Shown here in pieces: positions 1,609 through 50,136 of a stretch of 64,000 nt of DNA. The notes under the pieces were generated by a model. It did not search any database. It was not told where the DNA came from and was given only the letters and a program-made list of their open reading frames with translations. Origin of the DNA: Chloroflexota bacterium (GTDB taxonomy: Bacteria > Chloroflexota > Dormibacteria > Dormibacterales > Dormibacteraceae). The DNA lies in the NCBI GenBank assembly GCA_005880795.1, contig VBGP01000007.1, forward strand, positions 60,067 through 124,066. The letters are read 5' to 3'. The stretch's first letter is position 1. Each line of letters starts with the position of its first letter. The position numbers and the translations under genes are program-made.

Positions 1609-2571
1609 TTGCGAACCCTGATCACCACGGCCGGCAGGCAGGAGTCGACCGCAACCGACGCGATCGTCCGATGCTTCAACGAGGCGCACGAGCTCGGGTT
1701 CTGGCTCGACATCGAGGCGCCGGACGAGGCCGACTTCCATCTTCTGGAGCAGACCTTCAAGTTCCACGCCCTGACCATCGAGGACATCAGGCACCAGGAC
1801 CAGCGGCCCAAGGTCGATGAGTACAGCGAGTACAACTTCACGGTGCTCTTCGTGGCGCAGTGGCAAGAGGAAGAGATCGTTCTCCGGGAGCACCACCTGT
1901 ATGTAGGCTCCCACTACCTGATCACCGTGCACAACGAGCCGTCGTCGCAGCTGACGGACCTTCAAGATCGAATCCATAAGAGTCCCGAGCTGACCCACGG
2001 TAAGCCGGCCTTCATCACGTACCTGGCCATCGACGCCCTGGTCGACGCGAACTTTCCCGTCCTCGACAAGCTCGACGACCTCGTCGACCAGCTCGAGGAC
2101 GACATTCTCCAGAAAGCATCGCCGAAGGCCCTCGGACGCATCTACAACCTGAAGCACACGGTCACCGAGCTCCGGATATTCCTGGGCGCCCAGCGGGACG
2201 TGTTTCAGCGCCTGATCACGCACGGCATCCACCTGCAGCAGGAGGACCTGACCCTTTACTACCGCGACGTCTACGACCACATCGTGCGGCAATACGAGAC
2301 CGTCGACTCGCTGCGCGACCTGCTCTCGAGTGCGATGGACGTCTACCTGTCGACGGTATCGAACCGCGTCAACGAGACGACGAAGGCGCTGACCGTGATC
2401 GCCAGCCTGTTTCTTCCGTTGAGCTTCCTCACCGGTTTCTATGGAATGAACTTCGTGTATCTGACCCAGGTGCTCGAGACCCCCTACTGGGCGTTCGCGG
2501 TCGGCGTGGCCACAATGCTGATCGCGACCGCGATCCAGCTCTGGCTGTTCCGGCGCCGCGGCTGGATCTAG
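1609..2571 (+). CDS. CorA-like magnesium/divalent cation transporter
   Basis: C-terminal signature LTVIASLFLPLSFLTGFYGMNF followed by final TM; TTG start at 1609 proposed because the upstream ORF extension overlaps lysE and is not conserved-looking. Confidence 0.88.
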   Translation: MRTLITTAGRQESTATDAIVRCFNEAHELGFWLDIEAPDEADFHLLEQTFKFHALTIEDIRHQDQRPKVDEYSEYNFTVLFVAQWQEEEIVLREHHLYVGSHYLITVHNEPSSQLTDLQDRIHKSPELTHGKPAFITYLAIDALVDANFPVLDKLDDLVDQLEDDILQKASPKALGRIYNLKHTVTELRIFLGAQRDVFQRLITHGIHLQQEDLTLYYRDVYDHIVRQYETVDSLRDLLSSAMDVYLSTVSNRVNETTKALTVIASLFLPLSFLTGFYGMNFVYLTQVLETPYWAFAVGVATMLIATAIQLWLFRRRGWI

Positions 2572-2574
2572 GAA

Positions 2575-3222
2575 GTGAGCGACTGCTGCTCGCCCAAGGG
2601 CTACAAATGGGTGTTCAGCGAGAAGAGCGCCCGCGCGGAGGCGAAGCGGTACCGGCGAAAAGGCCTCGATTCCACCTCGCGCCGGATCGTCGACTTTCTG
2701 AGGACGCAGGGCGTCGGAGGCAAGACGCTGCTAGAAATTGGTGGCGGGATCGGCGCGATCCAGATCGAGCTTTTGAAAGCGGGCGCGTCACGCGCGGTCA
2801 GCGTCGAGCTCACGCCGACCTATGAAGACGTGGCGATAGAACTGCTGCGTGAAGCCGGACTGGAGGACCGCGTCGAGCGCAAGGTGACGGACTTCGCCCA
2901 GGCCGCGGGCCAGGTGGGCAGCGCCGACATCGTGATCCTGAACCGGGTCATCTGCTGCTATCCCGACATGCCGCGTCTTGCGGGCGCGGCCGCCGACCAT
3001 GCGCGCCAGCTGCTGGTCATGAGCTTTCCGCGGCAGACGTGGTGGCTCAGCATCGGGCTCGGGATGGGCAACTTTGTGCTGAGGGTGCTGCGGCGGGAGT
3101 TCCACATCTTCCTGCATCCACCAAAGAAGATCGTCGCCACATCACGGCAGCACGGTCTCGAGCCGGTGCTCGACAAAGAAGGCGTGATTTGGGTGGTGGC
3201 CGCCCTCCGTCGCGTCGCTTAG
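2575..3222 (+). CDS. Class I SAM-dependent methyltransferase
   Basis: GKTLLEIGGGIGAIQIELLKAGASRAVSVELTPTYEDVA (motif I) and ADIVILNRVICCYPDM; GTG start. Confidence 0.82.
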   Translation: MSDCCSPKGYKWVFSEKSARAEAKRYRRKGLDSTSRRIVDFLRTQGVGGKTLLEIGGGIGAIQIELLKAGASRAVSVELTPTYEDVAIELLREAGLEDRVERKVTDFAQAAGQVGSADIVILNRVICCYPDMPRLAGAAADHARQLLVMSFPRQTWWLSIGLGMGNFVLRVLRREFHIFLHPPKKIVATSRQHGLEPVLDKEGVIWVVAALRRVA

Positions 3223-42182: not shown

Positions 42183-43499
42183 TCAAATAGCGGCGAGCTG
42201 CAGGGCGCGGGCGGTGAGAGCGCTCACGACATCGCCGACGATCAGCGTCGCCGGCGCGTCGATGTGGGCCGTGTCAGCCATGCGCGCGATGTCGCCGATC
42301 GAGCCTTCCACGCTGCGCTGGTCCGGCCAGGTCGCCTTGCTGACCAGCGCTGCAGGTCGAGCACGTCCAACCACGCTCCCTATCTCCGCGGCGATCTCGG
42401 CGAGATTTGCGCGGGCCATCATGACGACGAGGGTATCGCTGGCGGCGGCCAGGTCGCGGAGCCTGGTCATCGACTCCGGGCCTTGAGCAGTGGTGATTGC
42501 GACCGACGATGCGACCCCCCGCAGCGTGGCCGGGACGCCGATCGACTCACCCGCTGCAAGGGCTGAGGTCACCCCGGGCACGACCACGACATCCACGCCC
42601 GCCGCGAGAAGATCGCGCATCTCCTCGCCACCTCGGCCAAAGACAAAAGGGTCACCGCCCTTCAGCCGCACCACGACGCGACCCGCGTGAGCCAGCTCGA
42701 TCATTCGGGCGGTGATCGCATCCTGCTCCGCGCTTTCGGAGCCGCCCCGCTTTCCGACCGGTTCGAGAATCGCCTGTGGACCGCACAGCTCGAGCGTTGC
42801 GGGCGAGATGAGGGCATCGTGCAGCACGTGGTCCGCGTCCGCCAGCAGCTCGCGGGCTTTGACCGTGATCAGGTCTGGGTCGCCCGGTCCCGCTCCGACG
42901 AGGGCGACCTGCCCGGAGTGCTCGGCGCCCGGCCGGGCCAGAATCGCCGCGCGCGCCGCTGCCTGGTCGGCGTGGCCGGAGCGCAGGAGCCTGAGCACGT
43001 CCGAGCTGATGAGCCGGCGGTACACCTTGGACTGTTCCGCGATCGGCACGCCGCGCTCGCGGAGCTGGCGGCGGATTCGGCCCACCAGCGCGGTGAACGG
43101 CCCCCACTCGCTGCCCAGCCAGCGCTCGAGCCGGGCCCGGAGGGCGGACGCCAGGAATGGGCTCTCACCGGAGGTCGAGATCGCGATCAGGAGGGGATCG
43201 CGGCGCACGATCGCGGGCGCGATGAACCGGCATTGCGCGGGGCGGTCGACGACGTTGATCAAGATGCTCGCCTCTTCCGCCTCTTCCCATGTCTGGCCAT
43301 TGATCTCGGGGTCCTCGCTTGCATCCACCACCAACCGCGCCCCGTGCAGGTCGCCAGGTTTGTAGTCGCGGGATGCGATGACCCGGACCAGCGCCCCGGC
43401 TTCACGGAGGCCGGCCGCTTTCTCGATCGCGAACTTGCCGTCGCCGACCACGATGCAAGGCTGGCCCGCCAGATCCAGAAAAACCGGGTAGTACCTCAC
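42183..43499 (-). CDS. cysG: Siroheme synthase: precorrin-2 dehydrogenase fused to uroporphyrinogen-III C-methyltransferase
   Basis: N-terminal [30 protein letters not shown]-terminal [56 protein letters not shown]. Confidence 0.93.
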
Positions 43500-45142
43500 G
43501 CGCTCGCCTCTTGCTTGGATGCTTCCAGCAGCACGCGGGCCACCTCAGGCCGGGTGAATTCCACCGGCAGGTCCGATCCCCCCTCCAGCAGCTTGCGCAC
43601 CGCGGTGCCGCTCAGCGTCCGGTGCAGCTCCTTGGGATGCGGGCATGTTCGGGTCGAGGCCATGCCACCACACGAGGGGCAGTAGAAGGTGTGCTCGAAG
43701 CGAAGGATCTCGATCCCGAGCTCGCCGGGTTTGTAGCCGTCGAAAATCCGATGCGCGGCGTAGGTGTCGTAGTAGCTTCCGACGCCGGCGTGGTCACGCC
43801 CGACGATGAAATGGGTGCAGCCGTAGTTGCGCCGGACGATGGCGTGGAAGACCGCCTCTTTTGGTCCCGCGTAGCGCATCCACGCGGGATTCGTCGCCAG
43901 CAGGGCGCGGTCGGCCGGGAAGTAGCCGGCCAGCAGCTCCTCGTAGCAGCGCATGCGCACCGAGGCCGGGATGTCGTCGCTCTTCGTCTCGCCAACGAGC
44001 GGGTGCAGCAGCAACCCGTCGACGATCTCGAGCGCCACCTTCTGGAGGTATTCGTGGGCGCGATGCACCGGGTTGCGCGTCTGGAAGCCAACCATCGTCT
44101 GCCACCCGCGCTGAGCCTTGACCTCGCGCACCTGCACGGGTGTCAGGTCGAACTCCGGAAAGCCGGATCCCGGTCGAGCCAGCGCGACGACGTCTCCGGC
44201 GAGCGCCCAACGGCCGGACTCCTTGAGCACGCGCACGCCGGGATGCGCGTCATCCTCGGTTCCGTAGACGGCCCGCGCTTCGCGCAGGTGCTCCGCTTCA
44301 TAGGCGTCGGTGATGCTGAGGATGCCGACGGGCTTGTCGCCGCAGAAGAGCGCCAGCCGGCTTGCGGAAGGGACCTCTTCTGTGCGGAGGACGATCGGGA
44401 TGGTGAACGGGATGCCGCTCGCGAGCCTGCCGTGCTCGATCACAGATTCGTAGTCGTCGCGCCCGATGAAACCGTCGAGCGGTGAGAGGGCGCCGGCGGC
44501 CAGCATGAAGATGTCGGACAGCTCGCGCTGCCCAACCTGCAATCGCGGCAGCTCCCTGGCCTCGGCTCGGAGCTGCTGCAGCTCGTCGCCCGAGGGCAGG
44601 CGTTCCGGCACCTGCCGCGGCAGGTGGCCGAGGCGCTCCAGCTTGTCGATCACCCTTGCCACCGACTCGCCCACGCTCTCCTTCGACGTATCGCACGTGA
44701 CCTCAGGTCGAAGCGGCTCTTCGTACGGGTCGCTCACACCGGTGAAGTTGGCGATCTCGCCGGCGATCGCCTTGCGGTAAAGGCCTTTGACGTCGCGCTC
44801 GACCAGCGTGTCCAGCGGGCAGCGGGCGAAGACCTCGACGAAGTTGGGCGTCTGGCCGCGCACCTCATCGCGCACGTCACGGTAGGGGGAGATCGCCGCG
44901 GTGATCGCAACTCCGCCGCTCCGCGCGACCAGGCGCGCTACGTAGCCGATGCGACGGATGTTGGTGTCGCGGTCCTCCTTGGAGAAGCCCAGTCCTTTGG
45001 AGAGGTGGGTACGGACCTCGTCGCCGTCGAGCAGCTCGGCGTGGCGCCCGCGACGCGCGAGCTCAGATTGGAGCGCGGTCGCGATCGTGGATTTGCCCGC
45101 GCCGGACAACCCCGTGAACCAGACGACGAATCCCCTGGTCAT
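43496..45142 (-). CDS. Bifunctional APS kinase (N-term)/ATP sulfurylase (C-term)
   Basis: [16 protein letters not shown]...[35 protein letters not shown]; sulfurylase [62 protein letters not shown]. Confidence 0.95.
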
Positions 45143-45996
45143 GCCTCTCCTCCGAGTAGTCCCCAGCGTTGCCGGACCGATCGGTCGACGGCACCAAAGA
45201 GGCTGTCGATGACGACGCCGATGACGAAGATCACGATCATCAAGGCGAGCAGCTGCTGTGTGTCTAGCAGGTTTCTTGCCAACTGAAGCTGCGTCCCAAT
45301 TGAGGTCTGGTTGCCTGCGACGACGAGCAGCTCAGCCGACATGAGGCTGCGCCACGCAAATGCCCAACCCTGTTTGAGACCACCGACGAACGCAGGGAGC
45401 GCAGCCGGAAGGACGACGTGGCGGTACAGTCGCAGACCGTCGGCTCCCATCGCGCGACCGACTCGGATCAGCATGGGGTGTACCTGGTCGATCCCACTCA
45501 AGAGACCTGCGGCGATGGCCGGCGCAGCGCCCATCAAGACGACGAGCGTGATCGCACCTTCGCTGCGCTGCAGCAATAGGAGGGCCAGGGGGAACCACGC
45601 TATGGACGGCATCGACTGAAGGCCAACCAGCAGGGAACCCACCGCTCTGCGAGCGAGCTTGACCCGCGCTATGAGAATCGCGACGACGGTCCCGGCTCCT
45701 GCCGCGATTGCGTAGCCGAGGGCGGCACGACGCAGCGTCATCCCGATTCCGGCGTAGAAGTCCAGATTGCGGAGGTCGCCGGCGAGCCGCTCCAGAACTG
45801 GCCACGGCCCGGGCAGCGCCGACTGCGGTCGCCAGCCGGACCATACGATGAGCTGCCAGATCGCGACCGCAAGAACGACCGCGCCCAGCTTTGGCCAGAG
45901 GTTTGACCACACTCGAGCGGCCGATTTGCGAACCGGATGCGGTCCGGTTCGCGGAACCTCTGACATCCGAAGTTCAGACGTGAGCTCAGCGGCCAT
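45139..45996 (-). CDS. Sulfate/sulfonate-type ABC transporter permease (SsuC/TauC-like)
   Basis: [101 protein letters not shown]. Confidence 0.9.
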
Positions 45997-46750
45997 TCGA
46001 CATCTCGTGCTTGAGCCGGTCTGTGATGCGGCCCGCGATCACTGCAAGCTCAGGCGAGTCAAGGCTCCGCGGGCGGGGCAGGTCGATCGGCACCTCGTGT
46101 GCCACGCGACCCGGCCGGCTCGTAAGAACGATCACTCGATCGCCGAGCCGCACGGCTTCGCGCGCATTGTGGGTGACAAAGAGGATGGTCAGGTGGCTCT
46201 CCGTCCAGATCCGTTCCAACTCTTCGTGCAGGAGGTCGCGACTGATCGCGTCCAGCGCCGCGAACGGCTCGTCCATCAGGAGCACGTCCGCTTCCTGAGC
46301 CAGGGCACGCGCGAGCGCGGCGCGCTGTTTCATGCCGCCCGAGAGCTCGTGGGGCCTCCGCCTTTCGAACCCGGCAAGGTGCACGCGATTCAGCAGCTCG
46401 TGGGCAACCTTTTGTCTGGCAGATGCCTTGACGCCTCGCAACTCCAGCGCCAACTCGACGTTGCCTGCGGCGGTCAGCCAGGGCAGTAGAGCCGATTCCT
46501 GAAAGATCAGCGCCACGCGCCCGTGGACGTGGGCTCGTCCACCGGACGGTCGATCGAGGCCCGCCAGGACATTGAGCAGCGTGCTCTTGCCAGACCCAGA
46601 TGCGCCCACGACGCAGACGAACTCGCCACGCTTGACCTCGAATGTCGCGCCGTCAAGCGCCAGCATCACCTGATCGCCGTGAGGAAAGGCGACGGTGAGC
46701 CGCTCGACGCTGAGCGCGTGCTTGTCGGAAAGGGCCATCACGTTGCTCAC
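45986..46750 (-). CDS. Sulfate/sulfonate-type ABC transporter ATP-binding protein (SsuB/TauB-like)
   Basis: VVGASGSGKSTLLNVLAGLDRPSGGRAHVHGRVALIFQESALLPWLTAAGNVELAL; HELSGGMKQRAALARALAQEADVLLMDEPFAALDAISR; GTG 46750 (overlapping cysH stop) or ATG 46738; N-terminal ORF extension to 47116 is shadow. Confidence 0.9.
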   Translation of the reverse strand: MSNVMALSDKHALSVERLTVAFPHGDQVMLALDGATFEVKRGEFVCVVGASGSGKSTLLNVLAGLDRPSGGRAHVHGRVALIFQESALLPWLTAAGNVELALELRGVKASARQKVAHELLNRVHLAGFERRRPHELSGGMKQRAALARALAQEADVLLMDEPFAALDAISRDLLHEELERIWTESHLTILFVTHNAREAVRLGDRVIVLTSRPGRVAHEVPIDLPRPRSLDSPELAVIAGRITDRLKHEMSNGR

Positions 46751-47418
46751 CGCACCAGCCCCTGGTAATGCAGACCGCACTCTTTCACCTCGTTGTGCTC
46801 CCACCACCAGCGGCCTGCCCTTTCGTCCTCGCCTGGCGCGGTCGCGCGAGTGCACGGAGCGCAGCCGATCGAGGTGTATCCACGGTCGTAGAGCGAGTGG
46901 TACGGGAGCTCGTTGTCGCGGATGTAGTCCCAGACGTCTGCCTTCGACCAGGACGCCAGCGGAGCGATCTTGGTGATTCCCTTGTGTTCTGGATCGAGGG
47001 AAACGACCTGGGTGTTCGCCCGAGTCGCCGCCTGCTCGCGGCGCAGGCCGGTGACCCAGGCGTCGTACCCGCCGAGCGCTCGGTCGAGCGGACGCGACTT
47101 TCGAACATCGCAGCACAGCCGCCTCATCTCGACTGCCCGGTAGAAGAGGTGGCTGCCGTTCGCCGCGACCATCTGCCCCACCTCATCCGCGTCCGGGGTG
47201 ACGACCTCGATCTCGATCCCGTAGCGATCGCGGACGCGGTCGATCATGTCGTGCGTCTGGGGCGGCAACCGGCCCGTGTCCAGCGTCAGCACCCGCAGGT
47301 CGGGACGGATTCGAGACGCGATGTCGATGATCACCGACGACTCGGCCTGGAAGCTCGCGACGATCGCGACCCGCGGGAACGTGTCGTAAGCCCAGCGCAG
47401 CGTTGCCTCGGCGCTCAT
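46747..47418 (-). CDS. cysH: Assimilatory APS/PAPS reductase with [4Fe-4S] cysteine motifs
   Basis: RRLCCDVRKSRPLDRALGGYDAWVTGLRREQ ... SIGCAPCTRATAPGEDERAGRWWWEHNEVKECGLH (CC...CxxC plus C-terminal ECGLH). Confidence 0.93.
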   Translation of the reverse strand: MSAEATLRWAYDTFPRVAIVASFQAESSVIIDIASRIRPDLRVLTLDTGRLPPQTHDMIDRVRDRYGIEIEVVTPDADEVGQMVAANGSHLFYRAVEMRRLCCDVRKSRPLDRALGGYDAWVTGLRREQAATRANTQVVSLDPEHKGITKIAPLASWSKADVWDYIRDNELPYHSLYDRGYTSIGCAPCTRATAPGEDERAGRWWWEHNEVKECGLHYQGLVR

Positions 47419-49130
47419 GCGATCGCCTCGGTCGCCGTGCGTTCGCGCAGCGGGTCGAACCCTATCCGTTCAACCCAGTTGCCAAAGCCTTCACCTTCGC
47501 GCCTGTCGGAGCGAAACTCGACGAAGATCGGGCGCAGCAGCGAAGGGATGTTGGCGATAGGCACATTGGGTGCGTAGACGCGATTCAGGCGCGTGCCGTC
47601 GAAGTCGCCCGCCAGCATCACGTCGTACTTGCCGAGTGTCGTGCCGACGAAGCCGACATCGCCGAGGTATGGCCGGGAGCAGCCGTTGGGGCAGCCGCTC
47701 ATCCGGAAGCTGATCCGCTCGCCGGCCAGACCGAGCTCGTCGAGCATCGAGGCGATCTGGCGGATGAGGCTGGGAAGCACGCGCTCCGCCTCGGCGACGG
47801 CCAGGCCGCAGGTGGGGATGGCGGGGCAGGCCATCGCATACCGGATCGCGCGCGGGATCGATTCGACGCCGGCCACGCCGTGCTGTGCAAGCAGCTCCTC
47901 GACGCGTGGTCTCTGAGCCGGAGCGATGCCGGCCAGGATCACGTTTTGCTGCGCGGTAAGCCGCACCTGGGGCCGGATCTCCTCGACGATCTTGCGCAGA
48001 CCAGTTCGCGATCGGACCTCACCGACGTCCGCGATGCGTCCGTTCTCGATGTAGATGCCGACGTAGAGCTTGCCGTCGCCCTGGTCGTGCCAGCCGAGGT
48101 GGTCGTCCACCGGCTCCCAGCGGAGAGGTTCGGGCGGCTGCAGCGCGAACGGGAGGCGTGCCTGCACCTCGGCGCGGAACCAGTCGAGTCCGCGATCGGC
48201 GATCGTGTACTTGAGGCGAGCGTGCTTCCGATTCGAGCGATCACCGTAGTCGCGCTGCACGGCGACGACCTCACGGGCCACGTCGACGACCTGTTCAGGC
48301 GCGACGAATGCCATCGGCTGCGCGACGGCGACAAACGTTTCGGGTTTGTTGTGGGTCCGGCCCAAACCTCCCCCGACCAGCACGTTGAAACCTCTGACCG
48401 AGCCGCCCTCCCCACGCATGGCGACAAGCGCCAGGTCGTTGGCGTAGACGTCGACGCAGTTGTCGCCCTCCAGCGCAACCGTGGTCTTGAACTTGCGCGG
48501 GAGGTACTGCTCGCCGTAGAGCGGCTCGGCCTCCGGCTCGGATGAATCGACCACCTCGCCGTCGAGCCAGATCTCGTGATAGGCGCCGGTGCGCGGGGTC
48601 AGGGCGGCGACCATCGCCGCGATCGCCTGGTGCGCCTCGTCGTGGAATCGGTCTGAGCGCGGCTCGGGGCAGCACATGATGTTTCGCTCGACGTCTCCGC
48701 ATCCGCCCAGGGTCGTCAGCAGCCCCTCGTTGATGGCGGCGATTGACTTCTTGAGATCGCCCTTGAGCACGCCGTGAAGTTGGAAGTCCTGGCGCGTGGT
48801 GATGCGCAAGGTTCCATTGGCCCAGCGCCCGCTTATGTCGTCGTGGGCGAGATACGCATCAGCTGAAACGATGCCGCCCGGGATCCGCGTCCGGATCATC
48901 AGCTGGTGGTGCTTGTCGAGTCCCTTGGCCCGCGCTTCTTTGCGCCGGTCGCGATCGTCCTGCTGGTAGATGCCGTGGAACTTGAGCAGCTGCTCGGAGT
49001 CGTCGCTGAAGGCGGGCGTCTCTTCGACGAGCTCCTCCTTGATGAGTCCTCGCAGGTGGTTGCTCGCCGCCTTGACGGACTCGTTTCGGGACAAGCCGTC
49101 GAGCGGTGCTCCGTCCGACAGGTTCGACAA
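47415..49130 (-). CDS. Ferredoxin-type sulfite/nitrite reductase
   Basis: LMIRTRIPGGIVSADAYLAHDDISGRWANGTLRITTRQDFQLHGVLKGDLKKSIAAINEGLLTTLGGCGDVERNIMCCPEP; SFRMSGCPNGCSRPYLGDVGFVG; TTG start at 49130. Confidence 0.93.
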   Translation of the reverse strand: MSNLSDGAPLDGLSRNESVKAASNHLRGLIKEELVEETPAFSDDSEQLLKFHGIYQQDDRDRRKEARAKGLDKHHQLMIRTRIPGGIVSADAYLAHDDISGRWANGTLRITTRQDFQLHGVLKGDLKKSIAAINEGLLTTLGGCGDVERNIMCCPEPRSDRFHDEAHQAIAAMVAALTPRTGAYHEIWLDGEVVDSSEPEAEPLYGEQYLPRKFKTTVALEGDNCVDVYANDLALVAMRGEGGSVRGFNVLVGGGLGRTHNKPETFVAVAQPMAFVAPEQVVDVAREVVAVQRDYGDRSNRKHARLKYTIADRGLDWFRAEVQARLPFALQPPEPLRWEPVDDHLGWHDQGDGKLYVGIYIENGRIADVGEVRSRTGLRKIVEEIRPQVRLTAQQNVILAGIAPAQRPRVEELLAQHGVAGVESIPRAIRYAMACPAIPTCGLAVAEAERVLPSLIRQIASMLDELGLAGERISFRMSGCPNGCSRPYLGDVGFVGTTLGKYDVMLAGDFDGTRLNRVYAPNVPIANIPSLLRPIFVEFRSDRREGEGFGNWVERIGFDPLRERTATEAIA

Positions 49131-49159
49131 TGAAATGCGCCTCCACTTGATGAGCTGAT

Positions 49160-49195
49160 GCCGAAGAAAAAGAACCCACGCCTATGGCAGCGTGG
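49160..49195 (-). terminator. Intrinsic terminator/attenuator in the leader of the sulfate assimilation operon
   Basis: Minus strand: CCACGC-TGCCATAG-GCGTGG followed by GTTCTTTTTCTTC; located between the leader peptide and the sulfite reductase start. Confidence 0.72.
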
Positions 49196-49224
49196 TGGGG
49201 CCCCGGCCCCTTCAGAGAATTCGG

Positions 49225-49311
49225 CTAGCTACAGAAGCAGCTGGCGCAGCGGGCGTAGTCGATCGCTCGTCGCCGAGTGAGCATGAAGGCGCGAGTCACC
49301 GTTCTACGCAT
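49225..49311 (-). CDS. Cysteine-rich 28-aa leader peptide
   Basis: ATG at 49311: MRRTVTRAFMLTRRRAIDYARCASCFCS*; GGAAG SD-like upstream; resembles actinobacterial leader peptides of LTRRRxxDxxRxxS..C type preceding Cys/sulfur genes; three Cys in the last seven residues. Confidence 0.78.
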   Translation of the reverse strand: MRRTVTRAFMLTRRRAIDYARCASCFCS

Positions 49312-49479
49312 GGCTTCCGGCAAGACTACCCGATGAGAACCCCGCTCCGCCTGTGGCAATTCCACCAAGGTGGGGCCGGTTCTTTTGTCCCCTACCTATA
49401 TATCTATGTATGCGCTCCGACTCGGCGAGGCGGTTGGTTGGGTAGAGCCTCGTGTCCCGGCGCCGGGAGCCCTGCCGGA

Positions 49480-50136
49480 CTAGACCTCGACCAGTCCCTT
49501 CTTTACGGCGTAGAGGACGGCCTGAGACCGGTCATAGATCCCTAGCTTCTCGTACATGTTGCTGACATGGTTGCGAACGGTCTTCTCACTGATCTTCAGC
49601 CGGTAAGCGATCTGCTTGTTGGCCATCCCGTTCGCAAGGAGCTTGAGGATCTCGATTTCCCGGTTGGTCAGTCCGTCGTAGAACTCCTTGGGAGTCGCAG
49701 TCCCCGTGAGCATGTCGAGCACTCGGTTGGCTACCGCGCTCGCCATGACCTTTTCCCCCGACATCACGGCAACGATGCTGCTGACGATTGCAGCCGCGGA
49801 GGAGTCCTTCAGGACGTAACCGCTTGCTCCGGCCTTCAACGCCTGGATGACCTGGCTGTCGGTTTCGAAGGTGGTCAGAATCAGCACCTTGATGCCCGCC
49901 GCCACTTCCACGATCTGCCGAGTCGCTTCGATCCCGTCGACGTTGGGCATTTTGATGTCCATGAGCACGACGTCGGGCTTTAGCTTCACCGCCTGCTTGA
50001 CCGCGTCGGCGCCGTCGATCGCCTGCCCGACGACCTCCACCCGCTCATCCTCACCCAGAAGACTGGTGAGGCCGGTCCGAAAGAGCGTTTGATCGTCGAC
50101 CACGAGTACGCGTGCGGCTCTGGCGGCTACGGTCAT
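49480..50136 (-). CDS. NarL/LuxR-family response regulator
   Basis: RVLVVDDQTLFRTGLTSLLGEDERVEVVGQAIDGADAVKQAVKLKPDVVLMDIKMPNVDG; HTH LTNREIEILKLLANGMANKQIAYRLKISEKTVRNHVSNMYEKLGI. Confidence 0.94.
   Translation of the reverse strand: MTVAARAARVLVVDDQTLFRTGLTSLLGEDERVEVVGQAIDGADAVKQAVKLKPDVVLMDIKMPNVDGIEATRQIVEVAAGIKVLILTTFETDSQVIQALKAGASGYVLKDSSAAAIVSSIVAVMSGEKVMASAVANRVLDMLTGTATPKEFYDGLTNREIEILKLLANGMANKQIAYRLKISEKTVRNHVSNMYEKLGIYDRSQAVLYAVKKGLVEV

Follow-up and report, generated by a model that had tools for sequence, protein, structure and literature searches.

The window that we analyzed, a 64,000-nucleotide stretch of DNA, is part of a 3.2-Mb draft genome. Its closest relatives with a name are MAGs from soil, entered in the databases as "Chloroflexi" or Candidatus Dormibacteraeota. 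On the basis of these relatives the host belongs to the phylum Dormibacterota and is not an actinobacterium, and the actinobacterial context in which the first-pass annotation had set the locus was mistaken. The minus strand of the window carries a sulfur operon that opens with cysI (47415-49130), which encodes an assimilatory sulfite reductase hemoprotein (NF010029, E = 1.1e-222) and begins, as had been proposed, at position 49130, with a TTG codon. The rest of the operon (42183-47418, same strand) comprises cysH (47418-46747), an ABC ATPase (about 46732-45986), an ABC permease (45996-45139), an APS kinase-ATP sulfurylase fusion with the APS kinase part N-terminal (45142-43496), and siroheme synthase (43499-42183). 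Among the ORFs listed around the ABC ATPase and permease (45139-46732), none encodes a binding protein. Upstream of cysI, also on the minus strand, lies a 28-codon ORF (49225-49311), followed in the 5'-to-3' direction by a hairpin that we call P3, a second hairpin (P4) with a T-rich tail, the cysI ribosome-binding site (RBS) GGAGGCGCA (49136-49144), and the cysI start. An Rfam scan of the window returned no match above the gathering score.

The short ORF encodes the peptide MRRTVTRAFMLTRRRAIDYARCASCFCS, which ends in RCASCFCS before the stop and thus has its cysteines spaced as CxxCxC. Its coordinates and letters had been given correctly in the first-pass annotation, and the comparison suggested there, of regions upstream of cysI in related genomes, recovered the same peptide. 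With a profile built from 22 leaders, we found the peptide in 35 of the 42 genomes of the host's family. Because of this conservation and the codon-level constraint described below, the leader ORF is genuine, beyond what chance would produce. A phylum-wide profile search matched 19 of 301 genomes at E ≤ 0.01; 12 of these belong to the host's family and several others were spurious. We set aside the weak phylum-wide matches L114 to L119, which lay mostly within long unrelated frames or had no terminal Cys codons, and a search of plasmids with the leader peptide gave no match. The order of elements, an LTRRRxxD motif and then Cys codons near the stop, is that of the Cys leaders in NCBIfam NF042934 and NF042933. 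The window peptide matched NF042934 with 24.8 bits (E = 1.2e-5; curated cutoff, 27) and NF042933 with 23.5 bits (E = 3.2e-5; cutoff, 45), and since it falls below both cutoffs, we claim no formal family assignment. Of 21 leaders from relatives, 16 matched NF042933 and 13 matched NF042934 at E ≤ 0.01. Our literature search found no report of such a leader in Dormibacterota.

Within the family, the leader precedes genes for cysI, TauE-type exporters, siroheme synthase, and carbonic anhydrase, the last being the downstream gene in several genomes that had no cysI match; a genome from another family has it ahead of a gene for a cysE-like serine acetyltransferase. The carbonic anhydrase leaders (L111, L113, L120, L139, L140, L145, and L146) are close paralogues with the pattern LT(R/W)R(R/L)A(I/V)D...CxxCLCS before the stop and are each separated by approximately 50 to 60 nt from a downstream gene for beta-carbonic anhydrase. 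All are from the same genus, and most of these genomes had no cysI match. At L144 (about 2511-2582, minus strand), a weak leader match, LTQRRVVDFSHCTSAACK, precedes a frame that by eye resembles cysteine dioxygenase, with a rhodanese-like frame after it; control of a catabolic gene would clash with simple starvation logic. In five relatives (L017, L020, L021, L024, and L030) cysI seems to begin with an extra CxxCxC segment (MCKVCGC-like) that is absent from the window cysI. Finally, at L079 (= L015) and L017 the RBS GGAGGC precedes a short frame that ends before cysI, so that either control acts on the start of another small ORF there or the contigs contain errors.

The region before the leader start contains a -10-like box, TAGTCT (49323-49328), 11 nt upstream of the ATG. 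It fits a TANNNT pattern that 23 of 24 leaders have 6 to 12 nt ahead of the start codon; the background, for gaps of 8 to 12 nt, is about 0.004. A box at this distance suggests that the leader ORF is probably translated from a leaderless or near-leaderless transcript, for which a Shine-Dalgarno sequence would not be needed. The GGAAG that had been read as a Shine-Dalgarno-like sequence can be dismissed, as a mere 2 nt separate it from the ATG and just 3 of 24 leaders have GGAA at that place. Farther upstream is a match to a SigR/SigH-like promoter motif, GGAAT-N18-GTT (49338-49363), a candidate inferred from the motif only. The pattern GGAA(T/C)-N17-19-GTT recurred in the upstream regions of 8 of 26 species, with a background of 0.009 per 170 nt, and the host genome encodes a SigH-like ECF sigma factor (C76:11078) that scores 151.8 bits, below the family cutoff. 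Such a promoter could couple the operon to thiol stress.

Codon-level constraint divides the leader in two. Numbering codons from the L of LTRRR, we found across 21 species that synonymous divergence (pS) was 0.000 over codons 12 to 18 and 0.50 over codons 1 to 10. Over codons 1 to 5, the LTRRR itself, pS was 0.58 and pN was 0.04, so that the amino acids are kept while the codons drift. All 26 species use TGC at codon 15 and TGT at codon 17, although TGT is rare in the window (one occurrence among 34 Cys codons, counted in eight genes). The carbonic anhydrase leaders behave in the same way, with a pS of 0.000 over their last four codons versus 0.47 over codons 1 to 8. Since synonymous sites are frozen at the Cys codons and free in LTRRR, the sequences imply that selection acts on the encoded peptide in the first half of the leader and on the RNA in the second.

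A partner for that RNA is offered by the cysI RBS, in which GGAGGC is invariant among 21 aligned species. The stretch UGCGCC, which spans Cys12 and Ala13 (49243-49248), pairs in most single folds with a GGCGCA that overlaps the RBS (49141-49136), the two forming the helix P1a in which UGCGCC would be the anti-RBS strand. As a named helix, P1a was paired in 98.4% of cells over the 21 species; being nearly invariant, it shows no covariation by itself. In window RNA without a ribosome, its predicted probability was 0.97. A second register is provided by UGCUUCUGU, which spans Cys15 to Cys17 (49231-49239) and is part of the hairpin AGCUGC-UUCU-GUAGCU (49242-49227); here GCUUCU, from codons 15 to 17, can pair with GGAGGC, and the two registers compete. 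The Cys-codon stretches matched their own RBS better than swapped ones, with a P value of 0.00015 for 24 leaders that is inflated by the relatedness of the leaders and a P value of 0.03 with one leader per group. Scored by the longest complementary run, the corresponding values were 0.015 and 0.023. An early version of the swap test with 11 representatives had shown little specificity by eye. Change of the kind that P1a does not offer is seen between leader groups, where codon 16 tracks the RBS, with UUC facing GGAGGC, CUC facing GGAGGCA, and UCC facing CAGGAGCA. Two cysI leaders, L049 and L050, have weak complementarity to their RBS.

A further helix, P2, joins GCCGAA (49220-49225), which overlaps the end of the leader stop codon, to TTCGGC (49160-49165), and so encloses P3 and P4 and folds the linker between leader and RBS. 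The two strands covary, and at the last pair of the helix (62-145) we observed AU in 12 species, CG in 5, GC in 1, and UA in 1. The test of P2 took it as a predefined helix, which had been named after inspection of the sequences; slid controls gave far fewer paired cells. RNAalifold, run on the leader alignment, returned pairs without compensatory change, and L036 and L047 seem by eye to have lost P2. The folding energies were less telling. In a GC3-matched test on the window, real codons paired no better than synonymous ones, 36% of which were as strong or stronger. Masking the leader raised the predicted mean accessibility of the Shine-Dalgarno sequence by little, from 0.22 to about 0.3, a rise likewise seen when the ribosome stood on the stop codon, and in single-strand folds the GC-rich RBS takes other partners. 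Pairing between the leader region and the downstream RBS is supported by sequence comparison, with weak thermodynamic support, and it is the comparative signals, not the energies, that carry the case for an attenuator.

Conservation of the peptide, the two codon constraints, the complementarity, the covariation of P2, and the non-conserved T-rich tail can all be read from the sequences themselves, and the comparative data favor occlusion of the RBS by the Cys-codon stretch. With a probability of roughly two in three, we consider the leader to be a cysteine-responsive translational attenuator. The first-pass view that an LTRRR-type leader with Cys codons controls the sulfur operon is upheld as the most likely one. 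We infer stalling, the switch and its direction, and the response to cysteine as follows. The leader ORF would be translated from a leaderless or near-leaderless mRNA. When Cys-tRNA is ample, the ribosome would complete the ORF and depart, the Cys-codon stretch (UGCGCC, GCUUCU, or both) would then pair with the RBS, assisted by P2 and by hairpins P3 and P4 as they fold the linker, and translation of cysI would be low. When Cys-tRNA is scarce, the ribosome would stall on Cys12, Cys15, or Cys17, its footprint would hide the anti-RBS strand, and the freed RBS would allow the operon to be translated. With assumed footprints of nt 17 to 46, 26 to 55, and 32 to 61 for an A site on Cys12, Cys15, and Cys17, respectively, the predicted probability of P1a fell from 0.97 to 0 at any of the three positions. 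When the ribosome was placed on the stop codon, the prediction for P1a was 0.06, which implies that repression would need the ribosome to depart. Coupling by termination and reinitiation was also considered and is thought unlikely across a stop-to-start gap of 94 nt. For mycobacterial poly-Cys leaders, Canestrari and colleagues are said to have put forward an RBS-occlusion model in 2020.

The alternative that the first-pass annotation had favored is classical transcription attenuation, in which stalling at the Cys codons would block a terminator made of P4 and its tail. The elements are present: the CCACGC-N8-GCGTGG hairpin (49195-49176) was borne out 29 nt after the stop, followed by GTTCTTTTTC, and hairpin and T-rich tail (49174-49164) together pass a terminator scan. 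Two such sites occur in 48900-49700, P4 included, compared to 0.6 ± 0.8 in shuffled sequences. The surrounding 20 kb contain 13, which is no enrichment over the 10.3 ± 3.3 in shuffles, and the tail of P4 is the most T-rich of them. In L034 and L035, which are close relatives, a similar stem is followed by six T's of eight. Against this, a T-rich tail follows P4 in only 5 of 26 leaders (L009, L033, L034, L035, and L045) and is missing from most relatives that have the peptide; a sixth leader, L050, has a weak tail after another stem. Four of the five tail-bearing leaders (L009, L033, L034, and L035) group together in a supported clade of five, a placement that leaves out L045. Moreover, P4 was predicted to form in the window RNA with a probability that never fell below 0.87 wherever the ribosome was placed, or below 0.98 when only RNA beyond the footprint was counted. 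In a search of the window for an antiterminator, the best upstream competitor for the 5' arm of P4 reached -4.8 kcal/mol versus -11.0 kcal/mol for the hairpin. The GGGGCC and GGCCCC segments that had been proposed to compete with the terminator do exist, but they form the separate and compatible hairpin P3 (GGGGC-CGGG-GCCCC, 49197-49210) adjoining P4. Since P4 would form wherever the ribosome sits and has no strong competitor, no ribosome-gated termination was seen, and we regard termination-based control as unsupported and quite improbable. An unlikely but less extreme possibility is that this small clade combines both layers, an ancestral translational attenuator and a terminator-like hairpin that would reduce readthrough, whether constitutively or at times when the polymerase is slowed by untranslated RNA. 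The tail does sit within an otherwise conserved attenuator in all five leaders that bear it, four of them in the clade described above. This arrangement also has no termination gate that we could find, and the T run coincides in part with the P2 strand TTCGGC, so that it may be just structural.

Two other explanations bear on what the leader senses and how it would act. In Rho-dependent attenuation, a leader region without ribosomes would allow Rho to terminate transcription before cysI. Although this was suggested for the same kind of leaders by Seliverstov et al. 2005 (PMC1262725), that study itself called the prediction weak, and it would leave the frozen synonymous sites, the covariation of P2, and the match to the RBS unexplained; we hold it to be extremely doubtful. 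In nascent-peptide sensing, LTRRRxID would act in the ribosome tunnel, and stalling would depend on the peptide beyond charged tRNA-Cys. The retention of the LTRRR amino acids over freely varying synonymous sites, which the carbonic anhydrase leaders share, is what such sensing would predict. The same conservation could instead serve leaderless initiation or pausing, and sensing of this kind strikes us as very improbable. More tentatively than the translational attenuator itself, we speculate that the leader is a two-part sensor, in which the LTRRRxID nascent chain tunes stalling at Cys codons that also serve, through their fixed nucleotides (the rare UGU among them), as the anti-RBS. One such module would then govern a cysteine regulon read by the ribosome in a family of the Dormibacterota, made up of sulfite reductase, sulfite export, siroheme synthesis, and carbonic anhydrase.

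The translational attenuator that we prefer would extend cysteine-leader attenuation beyond Actinobacteria to an uncultured and little-studied phylum and would add carbonic anhydrase to its likely targets. The split in codon constraint makes the unexplained LTRRR motif a testable question, and the terminator reading, which a single sequence would favor, was corrected by comparison.

Several known systems resemble this leader in part. Its location directly upstream of cysteine and sulfur genes is that of mycobacterial-type cysteine attenuators, and the window peptide aligns at 18 of 19 positions with NF042934 (cis_reg_atten, putative leader peptide), although under its cutoff. The mycobacterial ilvB1 transcription attenuator (PMC13236596) likewise has a leader ORF with regulatory codons and then a hairpin with a U-tract, but ilvB1 has a mutually exclusive antiterminator and none was found in the window leader. 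A trp-type attenuator differs in the same respect, as here the terminator is not conserved with the peptide and no exclusive antiterminator set by the ribosome was found. Cys leaders without terminators were described in Mycobacterium and others by Seliverstov et al. 2005 (PMC1262725), and in these actinobacterial leaders, too, a short ORF placed before a cys operon has its Cys codons close to the end; no conserved hairpin was found for them, whereas the Dormibacterota leaders have a conserved linker helix and, in one clade, a terminator-like tail. Mycobacterial Cys leaders have been described as translation attenuators (PMC13236596), and the closest parallel may be the cysteine-responsive poly-Cys short ORFs of the Ms5788A family (Canestrari et al. 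2020, as cited in PMC13236596). As far as that citation describes them, they too are LTRRR-type ORFs that carry Cys codons close to their end and lie before sulfur genes; they are apparently near-leaderless, as the window leader may also be. Control through access to the downstream RBS has reportedly been proposed for them and is the reading preferred here, a likeness of mechanism that we draw from the title of that work and the paper citing it. Compared to the poly-Cys ORFs so described, the window leader belongs to another phylum, has CxxCxC spacing instead of a Cys run, and scores below the NF042933 cutoff (23.5 of 45), and the Dormibacterota leaders have each Cys codon frozen to one synonym, fold their linker in a covarying helix, and have carbonic anhydrase as a frequent target.
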